The notes beneath the pieces were generated by a model. The model had not been told where the DNA came from and searched no databases. It was given only the letters and a program-made list of their open reading frames with translations. A DNA stretch of 64,000 nt, from assembly GCA_943330745.2 (NCBI GenBank), contig CALQIX020000001.1, positions 1 through 64,000 of the forward strand, given 5' to 3'. Shown one piece after another: positions 46,131 to 51,666 of the stretch. The number at the start of each line of letters is the position of its first letter. Within the stretch, counting starts at the first letter, position 1. The translations under genes and the position numbers were made by a program. The stretch is from Lishizhenia tianjinensis. Its GTDB lineage: Bacteria > Bacteroidota > Bacteroidia > Flavobacteriales_D > Crocinitomicaceae.

Positions 46131-47165
46131 TCAACTAAATCGTTGATTATTTACCATGTTTACGAAAGACTGAACACCCATTACATGTTTTAAAAACTTA
46201 TTCTGATCCCGTTCAGCTGGTTGGCCCTCGATGGAATAATGCCTTTGAGTGGCAGTTTCTAATCCATTCTTTGCTAAATCATCTATCATGGCGCGCAATT
46301 TCTTTTTCACCTTTCGATCTACTGTTAGTTTATGATTCACCACAACTCCTGTAATCTTCTGTTTTTTATTGTTCCCAGCGCATCGAAGTTTTTTCACGTT
46401 AATGGAGAAGTTTTCTGATTTGATTGTTTCAATTAAATCCAATATTTTTTCATCAGAAATATACTCTTCTCCTGAAAAGGTTAGATCATCTGCATAACGC
46501 GTATACGTTAACCCATGATTTTGAGCCTTGGCTTGTAATTTTTCATCTAATTCCAATGAGCATAAATTTGCCAATACTGGAGAGGTTGGCGCACCCGTTG
46601 GTAATGCCCCTTTATACGTACATAGAAGTGCTAATGCTGTTGCGATTTGATCAGTTAATCCCCAAGAAAGAAATAAACCCTTCACTTTTCTAGATGGAAT
46701 TGATGAGAAATAGTTTTCTAAATCAATAGATAAAATCCGGTTTTTGTTTAAATGAGGCATAGCATTCGTTACGATGGAACGATGAACCTGAAAAGATTTT
46801 GGAATAAATCCATGAACATTTTCGGGTAATTGAAAACTATAAACTGACTGAATATATAAATTGAGCTTTCGCTGTATCTTCATTAATTCCTTATCCGGTT
46901 GAAAAATCAATCGAGGTTTGCCTTTCTTTTTGGGAATAGTAAACTCTTTATAATTGGGCGAATTAATCAACTGCTCTAACTTTAATGGAGAGCATTGTAA
47001 AAAAAGGGATAATTCCAACCAAGTTGAAATACTGAGAAATGCCAATGCCCTTCCCTCCAAAACTGAATTTGAAAAGGAAGGGATGATACCATTAGACGTA
47101 CAAATCATGCGTCTAATTTCCGCAGCGTGTAAATCTCTTTTTTCAAGTAACAAGGTGAATTTCAT
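46131..47165 (-). CDS. Retron-class reverse transcriptase
   Basis: The 344-residue protein has all core RT motifs: IPKKKGKPRLIFQPDKEL (motif 1, about 77-94), ILSIDLENYFSSIP (first catalytic Asp, 148), LPTGAPTSPVLANL (188-201) and YTRYADDLTFSG (YADD 224-227). Two retron-specific marks are visible: NAMPH (134-138), fitting region X NAxxH, and ITGVVVN (271-277), fitting the VTG of region Y. No group II intron maturase or endonuclease domain is present. It would copy part of the adjacent RNA into multicopy single-stranded DNA. It is the last gene of the minus-strand operon, 40 nt downstream of the candidate msr-msd RNA. Confidence 0.9.
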   Translation of the reverse strand: MKFTLLLEKRDLHAAEIRRMICTSNGIIPSFSNSVLEGRALAFLSISTWLELSLFLQCSPLKLEQLINSPNYKEFTIPKKKGKPRLIFQPDKELMKIQRKLNLYIQSVYSFQLPENVHGFIPKSFQVHRSIVTNAMPHLNKNRILSIDLENYFSSIPSRKVKGLFLSWGLTDQIATALALLCTYKGALPTGAPTSPVLANLCSLELDEKLQAKAQNHGLTYTRYADDLTFSGEEYISDEKILDLIETIKSENFSINVKKLRCAGNNKKQKITGVVVNHKLTVDRKVKKKLRAMIDDLAKNGLETATQRHYSIEGQPAERDQNKFLKHVMGVQSFVNMVNNQRFS

Positions 47166-47204: not shown

Positions 47205-47352
47205 AAAAACTGCCGGTCGCTATCTTAGGTGGCGTATTCGGGAATGCGAAGCATTCACGCATACGGAGTACTGAATACCTCTCTTTTATCTTGGATTGCG
47301 GAGCACAATCGCTTATCGTACCATGCGACACATAGGTTGAACCGGCAGTTAA
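47205..47352 (-). ncRNA. Candidate retron msr-msd RNA
   Basis: The minus-strand RNA is bounded by a perfect 10-nt inverted repeat, AACTGCCGGT (47350-47341, a1) and ACCGGCAGTT (47217-47208, a2), as expected for a retron. Between them lie a short hairpin near CCTATG/CATGG (47336-47321) and GATTGTG/CGCAATC with loop CTC (47310-47294). A longer imperfect hairpin, CGTAT...GAATGC/GCATTC...ATACG (47265-47233), is the probable msd arm. The RNA begins 2 nt after the stop of the DnaB-like gene and ends 40 nt before the RT start. The usual AGC priming context next to a1 is not obvious. Confidence 0.75.
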
Positions 47353-48411
47353 TTAAAACGGAGCATCTTCTTCTTCAATTTCCCTTAATCGATCTGGAGA
47401 AAATTGGATTTTTCTTTCAAATGGAACAAAAGGTATAATTCCTCCGAAAGGTAAATTATGTTTAACCTGAACACTGCCAATGTAACCATTTCGATTTTTC
47501 GCAACATCAATTTCCATGATATTCTTGGTAGAGTCTCCATTCTCATCCTCATTAAAACCATAGTATTCAGGCCGGTACAAAAAGAGTACTTTATCTGCAT
47601 CTTGTTCAAAAGAGCCAGACTCACGCAAATCGCTCAGAACAGGACGTTTATCTCCACCCCGATATTCACAGCTTCTACTCAATTGACAAGTAACCATAAT
47701 ACAAACATTCTTTTCTCGAGCCAATTTTTTTAACTCACGACTTATGTACCCTAATTCCAATTCACGCTGATGTCGGTAGCGATTTGATTCCATTAATTGT
47801 AAAAAATCAATAAAGATTGCTTTGACACCCATTTCATCAATGTATCGATTACAATAAGACTTAAATGCCAGCATACTTTTGGATGTTTCATCACTTATGT
47901 ATATCGGCAAATTCTCTATTTCATTCTTGACTCTTTCAATCAATTTCCATTGCTCCGATGAAATGTTTTTCTTTTTAAATTCGCTGTAATTAATTTCGGT
48001 TAAGGAGGAAATTAAACTATGAACGAAGTTATCTTTGCCTGTATCCAATGCAAAATACAATACAGGGAATTTTCGCGCACCTTCTAACATCATGTATTGC
48101 AGAAATTTAGATTTTCCCATTCCAGGTCTTGCTCCAATCAAGATAAACTCACCCATGCCAAATCCACCGGTAATATCATCCAAATTAGAAATCCCGCTTT
48201 TATATTCAAACTCTCTATTTTCAGCCTGTAAATAATTGAGTGAATCATGAATCAATTCACTTAATTTGCTCGATTCCTTTAATTCGTTAATTAAAAGAAA
48301 TTCATTTTCTTGTAATACTTGAGCAATTTTTTCATGAACGTATGCATCTGAAAAAGAACCGTTTTCTAATACTTCTAACAATTTTTTTCGAAATATTCTA
48401 TTTATTTCCAT
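47353..48411 (-). CDS. DnaB-type RecA-like ATPase without the DnaB N-terminal domain
   Basis: The 352-residue protein is essentially the helicase C-terminal domain of DnaB. Walker A is GARPGMGKS (93-101), Walker B is KAIFIDFLQLM, and CQLSRSCEYRGGDKRPVLSD, LRESGSFEQDADKVLFLYR and VAKNRNGYIGSVQV match DnaB closely. The first 70 residues are a short helical segment instead of the DnaG-binding domain. In the strand after Walker A the usual SLE catalytic glutamate appears as ALD (FALDTGK), which may alter hydrolysis. As the gene beside the RNA and RT, it is a candidate retron effector or processing factor; that is inference. Confidence 0.85.
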   Translation of the reverse strand: MEINRIFRKKLLEVLENGSFSDAYVHEKIAQVLQENEFLLINELKESSKLSELIHDSLNYLQAENREFEYKSGISNLDDITGGFGMGEFILIGARPGMGKSKFLQYMMLEGARKFPVLYFALDTGKDNFVHSLISSLTEINYSEFKKKNISSEQWKLIERVKNEIENLPIYISDETSKSMLAFKSYCNRYIDEMGVKAIFIDFLQLMESNRYRHQRELELGYISRELKKLAREKNVCIMVTCQLSRSCEYRGGDKRPVLSDLRESGSFEQDADKVLFLYRPEYYGFNEDENGDSTKNIMEIDVAKNRNGYIGSVQVKHNLPFGGIIPFVPFERKIQFSPDRLREIEEEDAPF

Positions 48412-48440: not shown

Positions 48441-49082
48441 TTATTCTTTATCGTCGTCAAAAAACATAGCACTCGAGTTACCACTATTTTTACTGTGTTC
48501 ATAGTTTCGCACCGATTGACTAACCTTAAACATCATGGAACGGTATTCAGAACGATCAAATGAAGCCACATTTTCGGACTTAATGTTCAGTCGATCCGTC
48601 ATAACACGCGCATTGATTCCAGCACCTAAAAAAGTAAATAGCCATTTATCTGTGGCATTTAGCTCTTCAATCATTTTAGATATTTGCTCATACGTATAAA
48701 ACTGAGAAGCATTTTCATGACCATCTGTAAGAATGAGAACTACAACAGTTGCTAAATTCTCGTTTATTTCTTTACCAAATTTTTCTTGTATCGCATCAAC
48801 TGATTTACCAATCGCGTCAAGTAATGCGGTTGTTGATCCTGGTTGATAATTCTCTCTGGTCAATAAAGGAATATTTGCAACATTTGCAAAGCGAATGATA
48901 TCCGTAACCACATCCTCGAAATAAGTCACCGAAACCACATATTCATTTTCCGGAAAATCTTCTTTTAATTTTTTAATGGTTGTTAATTGAGCGTTAAATC
49001 CTTCGATGGTTTGATTTTCCAATCCTGCCATAGACCCACTTTGATCCACGATAAAGTGGTAAATTGTTTTTTTGTTTTTCAT
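48441..49082 (-). CDS. VWA-domain protein with complete MIDAS
   Basis: The 213-residue cytoplasmic protein is a single von Willebrand A domain. The metal-ion-dependent adhesion site is complete: DQSGSM (D13, S15, S17), the threonine in GSTTALLDAI (near 84), and TDGHENAS (D120). No signal peptide or membrane helix is seen, so it probably mediates metal-dependent protein interaction inside the cell, like the VWA parts of MoxR/VWA or Ro60 systems. It lies 29 nt upstream of the DnaB-like gene in the sigma-54 operon. Confidence 0.85.
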   Translation of the reverse strand: MKNKKTIYHFIVDQSGSMAGLENQTIEGFNAQLTTIKKLKEDFPENEYVVSVTYFEDVVTDIIRFANVANIPLLTRENYQPGSTTALLDAIGKSVDAIQEKFGKEINENLATVVVLILTDGHENASQFYTYEQISKMIEELNATDKWLFTFLGAGINARVMTDRLNIKSENVASFDRSEYRSMMFKVSQSVRNYEHSKNSGNSSAMFFDDDKE

Positions 49083-49091
49083 ATTATTTGT

Positions 49092-49553
49092 TTATTTATT
49101 TGTTATGTAATTAAAAGCAGCTTTAGCGTTTGTCATCTTATAGGTATAGATTTTATTGGCACAGGAACTTTCATTTATTCTTACTTTCATAGTACTAGCT
49201 GCTTTAAAGACTTCTAAGAAGCCTGGTTCTGATTCCATATCCCATGTAATGTAAACTACATCAGATGTACTTCCTTTATAGCCCTTAAATTCAAATTTAT
49301 TGTCTACACCATTAGCTACTAATTCTACATCAACTTTTGGGTCTTCATCACAATAATCACCACCACTTATTTCAAGTACAACAGCACTGTCTATTAATAA
49401 CATATATGCTTCAGCACCATTATTTCCTGGTGTGTATGCAAGTTTAAATGGCTTTTCAAATCCATTTTTTATTGTTTTAAAAGACCATTGAGCATTTAGA
49501 GTTCCTGCCGTTAATACACCCAATGCTAAAAAAATACTTTTCTTCATTATCAT
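49092..49553 (-). CDS. Small exported protein of unknown function
   Basis: The 153-residue product has a signal peptide (MKKSIFLALGVLTAGTLNAQ). Either ATG 49553 or ATG 49547 may be the start. The mature part is about 130 residues, beta-rich, with cysteines in GGDYCDEDP and NESSCANKIY that may form a disulphide. I recognise no domain. It is odd to find an exported protein inside an otherwise cytoplasmic operon; spacing of 12 nt and 9 nt to its neighbours argues that it belongs to it. Confidence 0.7.
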   Translation of the reverse strand: MIMKKSIFLALGVLTAGTLNAQWSFKTIKNGFEKPFKLAYTPGNNGAEAYMLLIDSAVVLEISGGDYCDEDPKVDVELVANGVDNKFEFKGYKGSTSDVVYITWDMESEPGFLEVFKAASTMKVRINESSCANKIYTYKMTNAKAAFNYITNK

Positions 49554-49565
49554 TAAATTTTGTTC

Positions 49566-50039
49566 TTAATTCATTTTTATGTATCGATCTAAGCACTCGT
49601 CGCATAGGTTTGGATGCCTAATTGAAAAGATTTGTCCGTCTTTGAAGTCAAAAGCAAAACAAAATACCACTTCATTTCTATCCTTATTTTCGGGAGAGCC
49701 TAATTTGATATTGAAGTCATCCATATCATCTTCGAAAGGATTAAAATCGGGATAACGAAATTCCAAGACCGGTTGACAAGGAAGAGAATCTATACTAAAC
49801 CCTTGTTTCACTTCCATATGAAATCCTTTTTCTATTCTTCTTACTTTCTTTAGACAAGAAAAAAGATAAGACAATGCAGCCTGCTTCTTCATTTTAGAAA
49901 AAAATACACCCTTTTCGTGCATTAAACTTTCCAACTCTTCCAAGTCTCTGTTTAAAAATGCACATTTAAATTGAGTCAAAACCGAGGCGTTCTCTAGTTT
50001 TTCTTTTTCTGAAATTTGCTTTACATCTAATTGATTCAT
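49566..50039 (-). CDS. Unknown protein, possibly NTF2-like
   Basis: The 157-residue cytoplasmic product is the first gene after the sigma-54 promoter. The opening helices ASVLTQFKCAFLNRDLEELE and the following GVFFSKMKKQAALSYL resemble the start of NTF2/SnoaL-like cone folds, but this is a weak, pattern-based guess. A C-terminal CDEC motif (NLCDECLDRYIK) could bind metal or form a disulphide. No other feature is recognised. Confidence 0.65.
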   Translation of the reverse strand: MNQLDVKQISEKEKLENASVLTQFKCAFLNRDLEELESLMHEKGVFFSKMKKQAALSYLFSCLKKVRRIEKGFHMEVKQGFSIDSLPCQPVLEFRYPDFNPFEDDMDDFNIKLGSPENKDRNEVVFCFAFDFKDGQIFSIRHPNLCDECLDRYIKMN

Positions 50040-50101: not shown

Positions 50102-50118
50102 GACAAAGGATGTGCCAA
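50102..50118 (-). promoter_or_regulatory. Sigma-54 (-24/-12) promoter of the retron operon
   Basis: On the minus strand TTGGCAC is followed by ATCCT and TTGT, aligning with YTGGCAC-N5-TTGCW. The -24 half is perfect and one -12 base differs (TTGT for TTGC). It lies 63 nt upstream of ATG 50039 and faces away from a sigma-54 activator gene that starts 112 nt on the other side, the classical divergent layout. Confidence 0.75.
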
Positions 50119-50229: not shown

Positions 50230-51666
50230 ATGAAAATTCTAGTTTCGTGGCACGCATACACGCATGATTTTGATAACGGGAAGGTTGTTGAAGATGGTCC
50301 AACCAATTCATTTCATCGTTATTTTTTCAAACACGAAAAGCATATTCTACTATCCGCAAAAAAAGACGATGACCTACGCGCATTACATTTACGCTCCCAT
50401 TTAGTGAAGTCTTATCCTGATCGAACGATAGAAATTCGTTATATGGATCTTACTGACCCTATTGATCATGCTGAAATACAATCTAAAATTCATCCCTTTT
50501 TAGCGGAATTAAAGGATGAAGAAATAGACGTTTTTATTTCACCAGGAACACCAGCGATGCAAGTGGTTTGGTATTTAGCACACATGAGTTTAAACTTAAA
50601 AACAACCCTTTATCAAACAAGACCTGCAAAATTCACGGTGAAAAAAGATCGTCCGGAATTGATTAAAATTTCTATGGAACGTTCGGCAATTGGATTGACC
50701 GCTTTATATCATCAACAAGACATAAAAAAATCAAGTTCTGATAATTATTTCACCACACCAGGAATTGCACGTATTTATGAAAACGCACGTAAAGTTGCTT
50801 TAACAGATGAAGTATCTGTTTTAATATTAGGGGCAAGTGGGACGGGGAAAGAAAACCTAGCCAAATACATCCACACAAACTCCATTCGATCCACCAAACC
50901 CTACATTGCAATAAATTGTTCAGCATTTAGCGACTCACTTCTTGAATCTCGCTTGTTCGGATACAAAAAGGGAGCCTTTACAGGAGCAGATAGAGATAGT
51001 GAAGGGCTTTTTGAGGTTGCTAATGAAGGAACTTTATTTCTGGATGAAATCGGTGATATTTCGCCTTACATGCAACAATCTTTGCTTCGAGTATTGCAAG
51101 AAAAAGAAATTATGCCACTAGGAGGAAAAGCAAAAAAAATTGATGTGCGTATTATCGCAGCAACCAATCAAAATCTTGTGAAGCGATGCGAAGAAGGAGT
51201 TTTTCGTTGGGACTTATACTATCGTTTATCCGTTGTTGAACTTGACTTACCTACCCTTCTTCAACGCGGAAAAGGTGATTTAAAGCAAATGATAGATTTC
51301 TTTCTCACTCAGAAGAAAAAGCAATTGCGCAAACCAAATAAATTATCTATCACCAAACCAGCCTTGGAAATACTATTGAACTATTCTTATCCTGGAAACA
51401 TTCGAGAATTAGAAAATATAATTTCTAGACTTTATGTTTTCAATGAAGAAAAAGTAACTGAGGATGTATTACCAAAACGACTGAAACAAGAATCAACCAA
51501 TCAACCCATGAATTGGGAGCACATTGAAAAAGAACATATTAAAAAAGTTTTAACTCATTTTCAAGGCAACAAAAGACAAACGGCATTAGCAATCGGATGG
51601 ACGATTAATACCTTGAATGCCAAGATTGAAAAATATGATCTACTTGATTTCATTACGAAAAAATAA
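50230..51666 (+). CDS. RtcR-like sigma-54-dependent activator with CARF-like sensor domain
   Basis: The 478-residue regulator has three parts. Residues 1-150 resemble the RtcR N-terminal domain: YMDLTDPIDHAEIQSKIHPF, then VFISPGTPAMQVVWYLAHM, where SPGTPAMQ (104-111) corresponds to the CARF ligand loop. Residues about 175-400 are the AAA+ domain with Walker A GASGTGKE (201-208), the sigma-54-contact loop GAFTGA (248-253) and Walker B TLFLDEIGD. Residues about 440-478 form a Fis-type helix-turn-helix (NKRQTALAIGWTINTLNAKI). RtcR proteins normally control RNA-repair genes in response to RNA ends; here no rtcA or rtcB is nearby, and the divergent operon is the obvious target. Confidence 0.9.
   Translation: MKILVSWHAYTHDFDNGKVVEDGPTNSFHRYFFKHEKHILLSAKKDDDLRALHLRSHLVKSYPDRTIEIRYMDLTDPIDHAEIQSKIHPFLAELKDEEIDVFISPGTPAMQVVWYLAHMSLNLKTTLYQTRPAKFTVKKDRPELIKISMERSAIGLTALYHQQDIKKSSSDNYFTTPGIARIYENARKVALTDEVSVLILGASGTGKENLAKYIHTNSIRSTKPYIAINCSAFSDSLLESRLFGYKKGAFTGADRDSEGLFEVANEGTLFLDEIGDISPYMQQSLLRVLQEKEIMPLGGKAKKIDVRIIAATNQNLVKRCEEGVFRWDLYYRLSVVELDLPTLLQRGKGDLKQMIDFFLTQKKKQLRKPNKLSITKPALEILLNYSYPGNIRELENIISRLYVFNEEKVTEDVLPKRLKQESTNQPMNWEHIEKEHIKKVLTHFQGNKRQTALAIGWTINTLNAKIEKYDLLDFITKK

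Follow-up and report, generated by a model that had tools for sequence, protein, structure and literature searches.

A candidate msr-msd RNA between a DnaB-like ATPase gene and a retron-type reverse transcriptase gene in Bacteroidota

A structured RNA with the anatomy of a retron lies between a DnaB-like ATPase gene and a retron-type reverse transcriptase (RT) gene in the window, the whole 64,000-nucleotide stretch of DNA analysed here, and it is the comparative evidence, not the folding energy of a single sequence, that decides that this element is real. We consider it likely that the RNA is the msr-msd of a retron, a type of defence element of bacteria, that is partnered by a DnaB-like ring ATPase and works by the mechanism set out below. 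Most probably the RT uses the RNA as primer and template for a small DNA, and from the comparisons that follow we infer priming at G47331, production of msDNA and a role in phage defence.

Gene order and layout of the RNA

The locus (source genome, 3.06 Mb) is transcribed from the minus strand in the order 157-aa gene, 153-aa gene, vWA gene, DnaB-like gene, RNA, RT. The first gene of the operon (49566..50039) encodes a member of a 157-aa protein family and is followed by genes for a 153-aa protein that is common to the two sister species only (49092..49553) and for a vWA-domain protein with homologues at 7 of 50 loci (48441..49082); PADLOC models gave no match for either of the latter two. The DnaB-like ATPase/helicase (47353..48411) has 352 aa and consists of DnaB_C without DnaB_N, an assignment based on domain, fold and neighbourhood comparison, while the 344-aa RT (46131..47165) was identified by PADLOC retron RT models, its match to the Ec86 RT, its motifs and its place in an RT tree.

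The perfect 10-nt inverted repeat on which the original prediction of an msr-msd RNA rested is present (AACTGCCGGT at 47208-47217 and ACCGGCAGTT at 47341-47350, with 123 nt between them), and its arms reach 17 nt if mismatches are allowed. Between the arms are the two short hairpins and the longer imperfect one (47233-47265) that had been described, and a1 does start 2 nt past the preceding stop codon, the TAA of the DnaB-like gene (47353-47355, minus strand). The predicted limits of 47205-47352 hold for the element as such, but the exact arms lie 2-3 nt further in. The functional RNA strand is the minus strand, that of the DnaB-like gene and the RT; the plus-strand RNA, which folds slightly better, was rejected, as the genes and the conserved elements read on the minus strand. 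The folding energy of the coding strand is modestly unusual for this single sequence (z -2.2).

Read 5′ to 3′ on the minus strand, the RNA opens with a1, the 5′ arm of the outer stem (AACTGCCGGT plus a G-U pair, 47340..47350), which covaries with a2 in 41 loci. The 5′ side of an inner, putative priming helix (CUAU, 47332..47335; CUUAU, AUUAU, UUUAU, ACCAU and others in relatives, with U-A, C-G and A-U exchanges) follows, and directly 3′ of it stands an invariant G (47331), a candidate for the 2′-OH priming (branching) guanosine by its position and by analogy with retrons. Two msr hairpins come next: P2 (GTCG...CGAT, 47315..47329), with 72% of cells paired the weakest of the four helices, and P3 (GATTG-TGCTCCG-CAATC, 47294..47310), the most conserved element, with 96.6% of cells paired, the consensus GGTTG-TGTTCCTG-CAACC and double changes in 2 of 5 pairs. 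The msd hairpin (CGTATGCGTGAATGC-TTC-GCATTCCCGAATACG, 47233..47265) varies in sequence among relatives and is usually folded; the mean z of the msd region is -2.0 over 44 loci and -0.8 in the window itself. The RNA closes with AAG|AUAG (47220..47226), which holds the 3′ side of the inner helix and the presumed first template bases and in which AUA is invariant in 41 loci, and with a2, the 3′ arm of the outer stem (47208..47218), which covaries with a1.

Conservation, covariation and model search

The RNA is 95-99% identical to that of the two sister species; at one related locus (L003) its conservation was set against a synonymous divergence of ∼0.3 in the flanking genes. The same structure, in different sequence, recurs in ∼40 further loci. 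Covariation was counted on a MAFFT alignment of 41 loci, covering 22 pairs in four helices. Across these loci 93.2% of the cells are paired, versus 28-52% when the partners are slid by 1-3 columns, and double changes occur in 14 of the 22 pairs (53 cells; shuffled mean 11.2). The covariation score of 0.223, versus 0.122 ± 0.006 in shuffled alignments, was reached in 0 of 500 shuffles. Relatedness among the loci is not removed by the shuffle controls and is kept by the slid controls. The outer stem and P3 were also found independently by RNAalifold, and 14 of the 19 pairs concerned carry double changes. Compensatory changes in a1/a2 had been named in advance as the evidence to look for, and 8 of the 9 counted a1/a2 pairs carry double compensatory changes; the inner helix covaries as well. 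Likewise, the expectation that homologous RTs have the repeat upstream was borne out: among genomes of the order, the 30 closest homologues of the RT all have it, in a gap of ∼150-240 nt between the DnaB-like gene and the RT. Together, the covariation and the repeat upstream of homologous RTs support reading the sequence as a putative msr-msd.

A covariance model of the RNA, R1, scores 91 bits (E = 2.5e-17) in the window and has no other significant match in the genome. In 399 genomes of the order it gave 36 matches in 35 genomes, all adjoining a DnaB-like gene. This includes the matches for which the first search had found no RT (G161, G322, G351 and G357), which lie at contig ends with the DnaB-like gene adjoining. 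Weak matches in the right place were obtained in distant members (L111, 8e-5; L052, 0.07; L058, 0.09; L059, 0.57). R1 did not match at the RTs of type I-C, XI or XII loci, and Rfam covariance models found nothing at the position of the RNA up to an E of 5.

Two loci deserve separate mention. In L002 the RT protein differs from that of the window by 9%, in contrast to a near-identical dnaB-like gene (99.1%) and RNA (99%), hinting at recombination or at an RT that alone evolves faster. One genome, G346, carries two distinct loci with a DnaB-like gene and a retron, one typical (L004) and one diverged (L243).

An invariant guanosine ends a second, inner helix

A second short helix lies within a1/a2, formed in the window by 5′ CUAU|G ... 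AAG|AUAG 3′. Each sequence has ...AUG between a1 and the first hairpin and ...GAU just before a2, and the pairs of the inner helix change together, from CUAU/AUAG in the window to CUUAU/AUAAG, AUUAU/AUAAU and UUUAU/AUAAA in relatives and ACCAU/AUGGU in the distant L111. The helix has 5.2 pairs on average, versus a mean of 4.1 when partners are re-dealt, and 5.2 was reached in 0 of 2000 trials. The a1/a2 stem is thus longer than originally seen, interrupted, and ends at the invariant G. This residue, G47331 in the window, sits at the end of the second helix, 9 nt inside a1, and a G occupies the candidate priming position in 44 of 44 sequences.

In retrons the priming G stands directly 3′ of the stem, in UAGC, CAGC or CAGA contexts; CAGA and ACGC are known as variants, and one retron has no apparent G (PMC6868368). 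By its position directly 3′ of the stem, G47331 would correspond to the retron priming guanosine, while its context does not: the (T)AGC type, common but not universal in retrons, is replaced by UAUG. The original prediction was right that no AGC stands next to a1, and its absence is explained by the inner helix, which ends at a G set in UAUG, not UAGC. Its suggestion that the branching G may sit elsewhere gains support from the invariant G that ends the second helix. The AUG within UUAUG was also considered as a start codon and rejected, its open reading frames being 2-53 codons long and of mixed phase.

The reverse transcriptases form one branch with DnaB-like partners

The best PADLOC models for the RT are RT-Protease_XI (1e-83), RT-TIR_XII (4e-79) and RT_XIII (1.5e-78), and the best match among solved structures (PDB) is the Ec86 RT (1e-39). 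The protein has NAMPH in region X (NAxxH), YADD, and ITG opening region Y (VTG in most relatives). Its dN/dS of 0.12-0.29 against the two sister species indicates purifying selection. With 344 aa it has no fused effector domain of the kind that defines types I-C, XI and XII.

The 30 RT homologues that matched best in the 399 genomes of the order, with identities down to 38%, all follow directly on a DnaB-like ORF. When the RT alignment was run against the whole database, further loci came from Chitinophagales, Bacteroidales, Cytophagales and Flavobacterium branchiophilum, as well as from single MAGs labelled Verrucomicrobia and Rhizobium, labels that may be wrong. Searching viral contigs with the alignment gave one retron with a DnaB-like partner, L111, on a mobile element; with a single RT the viral contigs gave no match, and plasmids and phages yielded generic dnaB or distant retron RTs only.

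In a maximum-likelihood tree, 44 of 44 RTs with a DnaB-like partner fall in one branch (47 rows, SH-aLRT 96), and the partnership requires 4 changes on the tree versus 33.6 in shuffles. The three RTs of this branch without a DnaB-like gene are L047 and L058, both cut upstream by a contig end, and L105, a long branch. Other branches hold the RT-Toprim, RT-TIR and RT-protease fusions (types I-C, XI and XII). At L105:697-7367, in a Bacteroidetes MAG, a retron-related RT is immediately followed by cas1 and cas2 and has another cas1 upstream; the literature mentions a CRISPR RT related to retrons in Haliscomenobacter hydrossis (PMC8934634).

The DnaB-like partner

A DnaB-like gene adjoins the RNA and RT in every locus of the clade whose contig reaches far enough. 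The AlphaFold model (pLDDT 80) has the DnaB fold by Foldseek (E. coli DnaB, 3e-24). The protein has retained both Walker motifs, A and B, as well as QLSRS and, in the arginine-finger region, KNR; the Walker motifs and the arginine-finger region are preserved in nearly all members. Of 17 members, 12 have Asp in place of the H1a glutamate. A dN/dS of 0.05-0.08 against the two sister species indicates purifying selection. PADLOC gave only one match for this protein, mad8 (1.8e-6), and no retron effector model (types I-XIII, PADLOC 2.0). The acidic ...xPF end of most members was considered as mimicry of an SSB tail and rejected, since host DnaB ends in ...ESAPF and the tail is thus inherited.

Members of the main clade have no N-terminal collar. 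The N-terminal domain of DnaB is still present in two deep members, L052 and L059, so a full-length DnaB was apparently captured and its collar domain trimmed later. In two deep members the Walker A lysine is replaced (GIGIT in L059, 3418-4845; GMGRT in L111, 3943-4794), and L059 also lacks the Walker B aspartate, suggesting ATPase-dead versions; ATPase activity may therefore not be needed everywhere.

A sliding-clamp-like accessory protein at some loci

In six relatives (L004, L005, L011, L012, L016 and L021) an ORF of 187-201 aa overlaps the RT or begins at most 24 nt after it; it lies just 3′ of the RT at L004:2498-3058, L016:2442-2999, L012:2483-3076 and L021:2480-3082. A relative of it stands upstream of dnaB in L050 (290-877). 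This accessory protein has no Pfam match, and its sequence profile gave only chance matches in the PDB. For a model of moderate quality (pLDDT 62; ∼80 for residues 14-120; three sequences), essentially all of the matches listed are bacterial beta clamps, at 1e-5 to 3e-4, which predicts a sliding-clamp (DnaN) fold of a single domain. It is suggestive that a modelled clamp-like accessory, a DnaB-like protein and a polymerase would resemble a set of replisome parts. The window itself was searched for the accessory protein, which is absent from it.

A sigma-54 activator next to the operon

Divergent from the operon, on the plus strand, is a gene for a sigma-54 activator with an RtcR-type (CARF) domain (50230..51666; RtcR 5.6e-7, Sigma54_activat 7e-62), in which the RtcR-type domain, the sigma-54 AAA+ domain and the Fis HTH are all above Pfam cut-offs. 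A candidate sigma-54 -24/-12 promoter, TGGCAC-N5-TTGTC (TGGCACATCCTTTGTC, 50102..50117, minus strand), faces the retron operon 78 nt before its first gene, with a spacing shared with relatives; within the 64 kb, this match alone is not significant. Of 27 dereplicated loci of the family, 11 have TGG-N8-TTG at 38-55 nt before dnaB, where 0.44 would be expected; none of 15 other loci has it.

Of 50 loci with a DnaB-like gene and a retron, 18 have an activator homologue no more than 7 kb away. The activator is found in 29-30 of 35 retron genomes of the order versus 5 of 35 retron-free genomes of the genus, a comparison that ignores kinship and in which the count of 30 holds at the E cut-off and includes one partial match of 44% (G351). 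In the retron-free L284, L286, L287 and L288 the same regulator and promoter stand before nothing but members of the 157-aa gene family and other small genes, and the retron thus seems to have joined a pre-existing regulon. For RtcR itself, the activating ligands are tRNA 5′ fragments that end in a cyclic phosphate (PMC7790460). The neighbouring RtcR-type activator probably raises expression of the operon.

Proposed mechanism and alternatives

In the mechanism that we propose, the RNA would be excised from a dnaB-RNA-RT transcript, and the RT would prime on the 2′-OH of G47331 and copy the msd from about position 47224. The product would be a branched RNA-DNA with a DNA of ∼60-70 nt, whose predicted cDNA start is 5′-CTTAGGTGGCG... 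(plus strand from ∼47224, ± 2 nt); DNA linked 2′-5′ to G47331 would begin 5′-CTTAGGTGG.... The particle of RT and msDNA would control the DnaB-like ATPase, a protein of an ssDNA-binding ring ATPase family and the most likely effector, which a phage replication signal may release or set off. The DnaB-like protein would then act at replication forks and halt replication, either by loading on ssDNA or as a competitor of the helicase of host or phage for contacts with the loader or clamp loader. Our argument for the DnaB-like protein as effector is its constant position.

That position could also be read in another way. In an otherwise identical retron, the DnaB-like protein may be a structural or remodelling subunit, such as a ring that threads msDNA or an ssDNA sensor, with toxicity arising from the vWA or 157-aa gene or from a passive replication block. 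We hold this to be unlikely, though it has more in its favour than the readings discussed after it: L059 and L111 have no Walker A lysine, most members have Asp for the catalytic H1a glutamate, and the vWA and 157-aa genes recur. However, these two genes are absent from most loci, whereas the DnaB-like gene is constant, and nearly all members have intact Walker A and B motifs and an intact arginine-finger region. Distinctly less probable is that synthesis starts in another way, with a different nucleotide or a protein side chain as primer or template-free in the manner of certain DRT systems, which would make the RNA a retron-like scaffold or template rather than a 2′-5′ branched msr-msd. The UAUG context in place of AGC would fit this, as would the protein priming or template-free synthesis reported for other defence RTs (PMC12483538, PMC13275509). 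Yet the RT has the retron motifs of regions X and Y and groups with retron RTs, the invariant G stands directly 3′ of the stem as in retrons, and the template side, AAG|AUA, is fixed.

The remaining two alternatives deny the RNA a part in reverse transcription. A cis-acting mRNA structure between dnaB and the RT (an attenuator, a translational control element or a processing stem) would suit the presumed polycistronic transcript and the T-rich stretch after a1/a2, but we think it very improbable: an inner helix with an invariant G and two msr-type hairpins is the anatomy of a retron, not of a terminator, the ends of the element are fixed and its middle arm is free to vary, and members of the RT family use an upstream RNA of such a layout. 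The modest z of the coding strand (only -2.2) is what speaks for a chance inverted repeat, which conservation in the sister species and the model search contradict and the covariation count excludes; its probability is negligible. Counted against the msr-msd reading itself are the UAUG context, the lack of an Rfam match, the msd z of -0.8 in the window and the pairing of P2 in only 72% of cells.

We also entertain a bolder version of the preferred reading, doubtful as a whole: a retron built of replisome parts, in which a collarless DnaB-like ring, the RT with its msDNA and, where present, a single clamp-fold protein would form one particle. This would watch a replication fork or mimic one, and would poison replication in phage or host. 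Such a retron would prime at the UAUG guanosine and be induced by an RtcR-like sensor, coupling RNA damage to DNA sensing within a single defence operon.

Relation to known systems

The locus combines a retron-type RT, a structured ncRNA with a1/a2 5′ of the RT and a conserved partner gene, the features by which retrons are recognized. Known retron effectors are mostly nucleases, hydrolases, proteases, TIR, Toprim and membrane proteins, and few retrons have been characterised in Bacteroidota. A retron type partnered by a DnaB-like protein across Bacteroidota, distinct in RNA class, priming context and partner, is apparently undescribed. Literature searches, which had the main 2020 retron census outside their range, found no paper on such a system for retron and DnaB and none for retron and RtcR; judged by PADLOC models, a DnaB retron is not known from that census, and the claim of novelty is conditional on it. 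A relative of the replicative helicase as effector would suggest a new way of stopping phage replication, and UAUG priming, if true, would widen the retron priming rules used in genome editing. If real, the link to sigma-54 and an RtcR-type activator would make this the first retron controlled by an RNA-damage-type switch. Further members of the type can easily be found in Bacteroidota with R1 and the RT/DnaB pair.

The activator resembles RtcR, a CARF-domain sigma-54 activator of RNA repair that controls rtcBA, in its domain order (RtcR-type, sigma-54 AAA+, Fis HTH) and in being divergent from a sigma-54-like promoter; unlike with RtcR, the domain match is weak (5.6e-7) and the operon is a retron, with no rtcA or rtcB. 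The DnaB-like protein shares the DnaB_C fold, the Walker motifs and the acidic ...PF C-terminus with host DnaB of the same genome (L191), from which main-clade members differ in having no DnaB_N collar/primase domain, a length of ∼350 versus ∼500 aa and mostly Asp for the H1a Glu. By PADLOC models and tree, the nearest relatives of the RT belong to types I-C (RT-Toprim), XI (RT-protease) and XII (RT-TIR), whose effectors are fused to the RT, whereas here the genes are separate and the partner lies upstream. As in Retron-Eco1 (Ec86) and canonical msr-msd RNAs, there are a1/a2, a candidate priming G 3′ of the stem, msr hairpins and an msd arm, and as in Ec86 the RNA is 5′ of an RT with NAxxH, YADD and a VTG-type triplet. 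In contrast to these systems, an internal loop splits the outer stem into a1/a2 and an inner helix of 4-6 bp, the putative priming context is UAUG rather than UAGC, CAGC or CAGA, and the partner, a nucleoside deoxyribosyltransferase-like protein in Ec86, is here DnaB-like.
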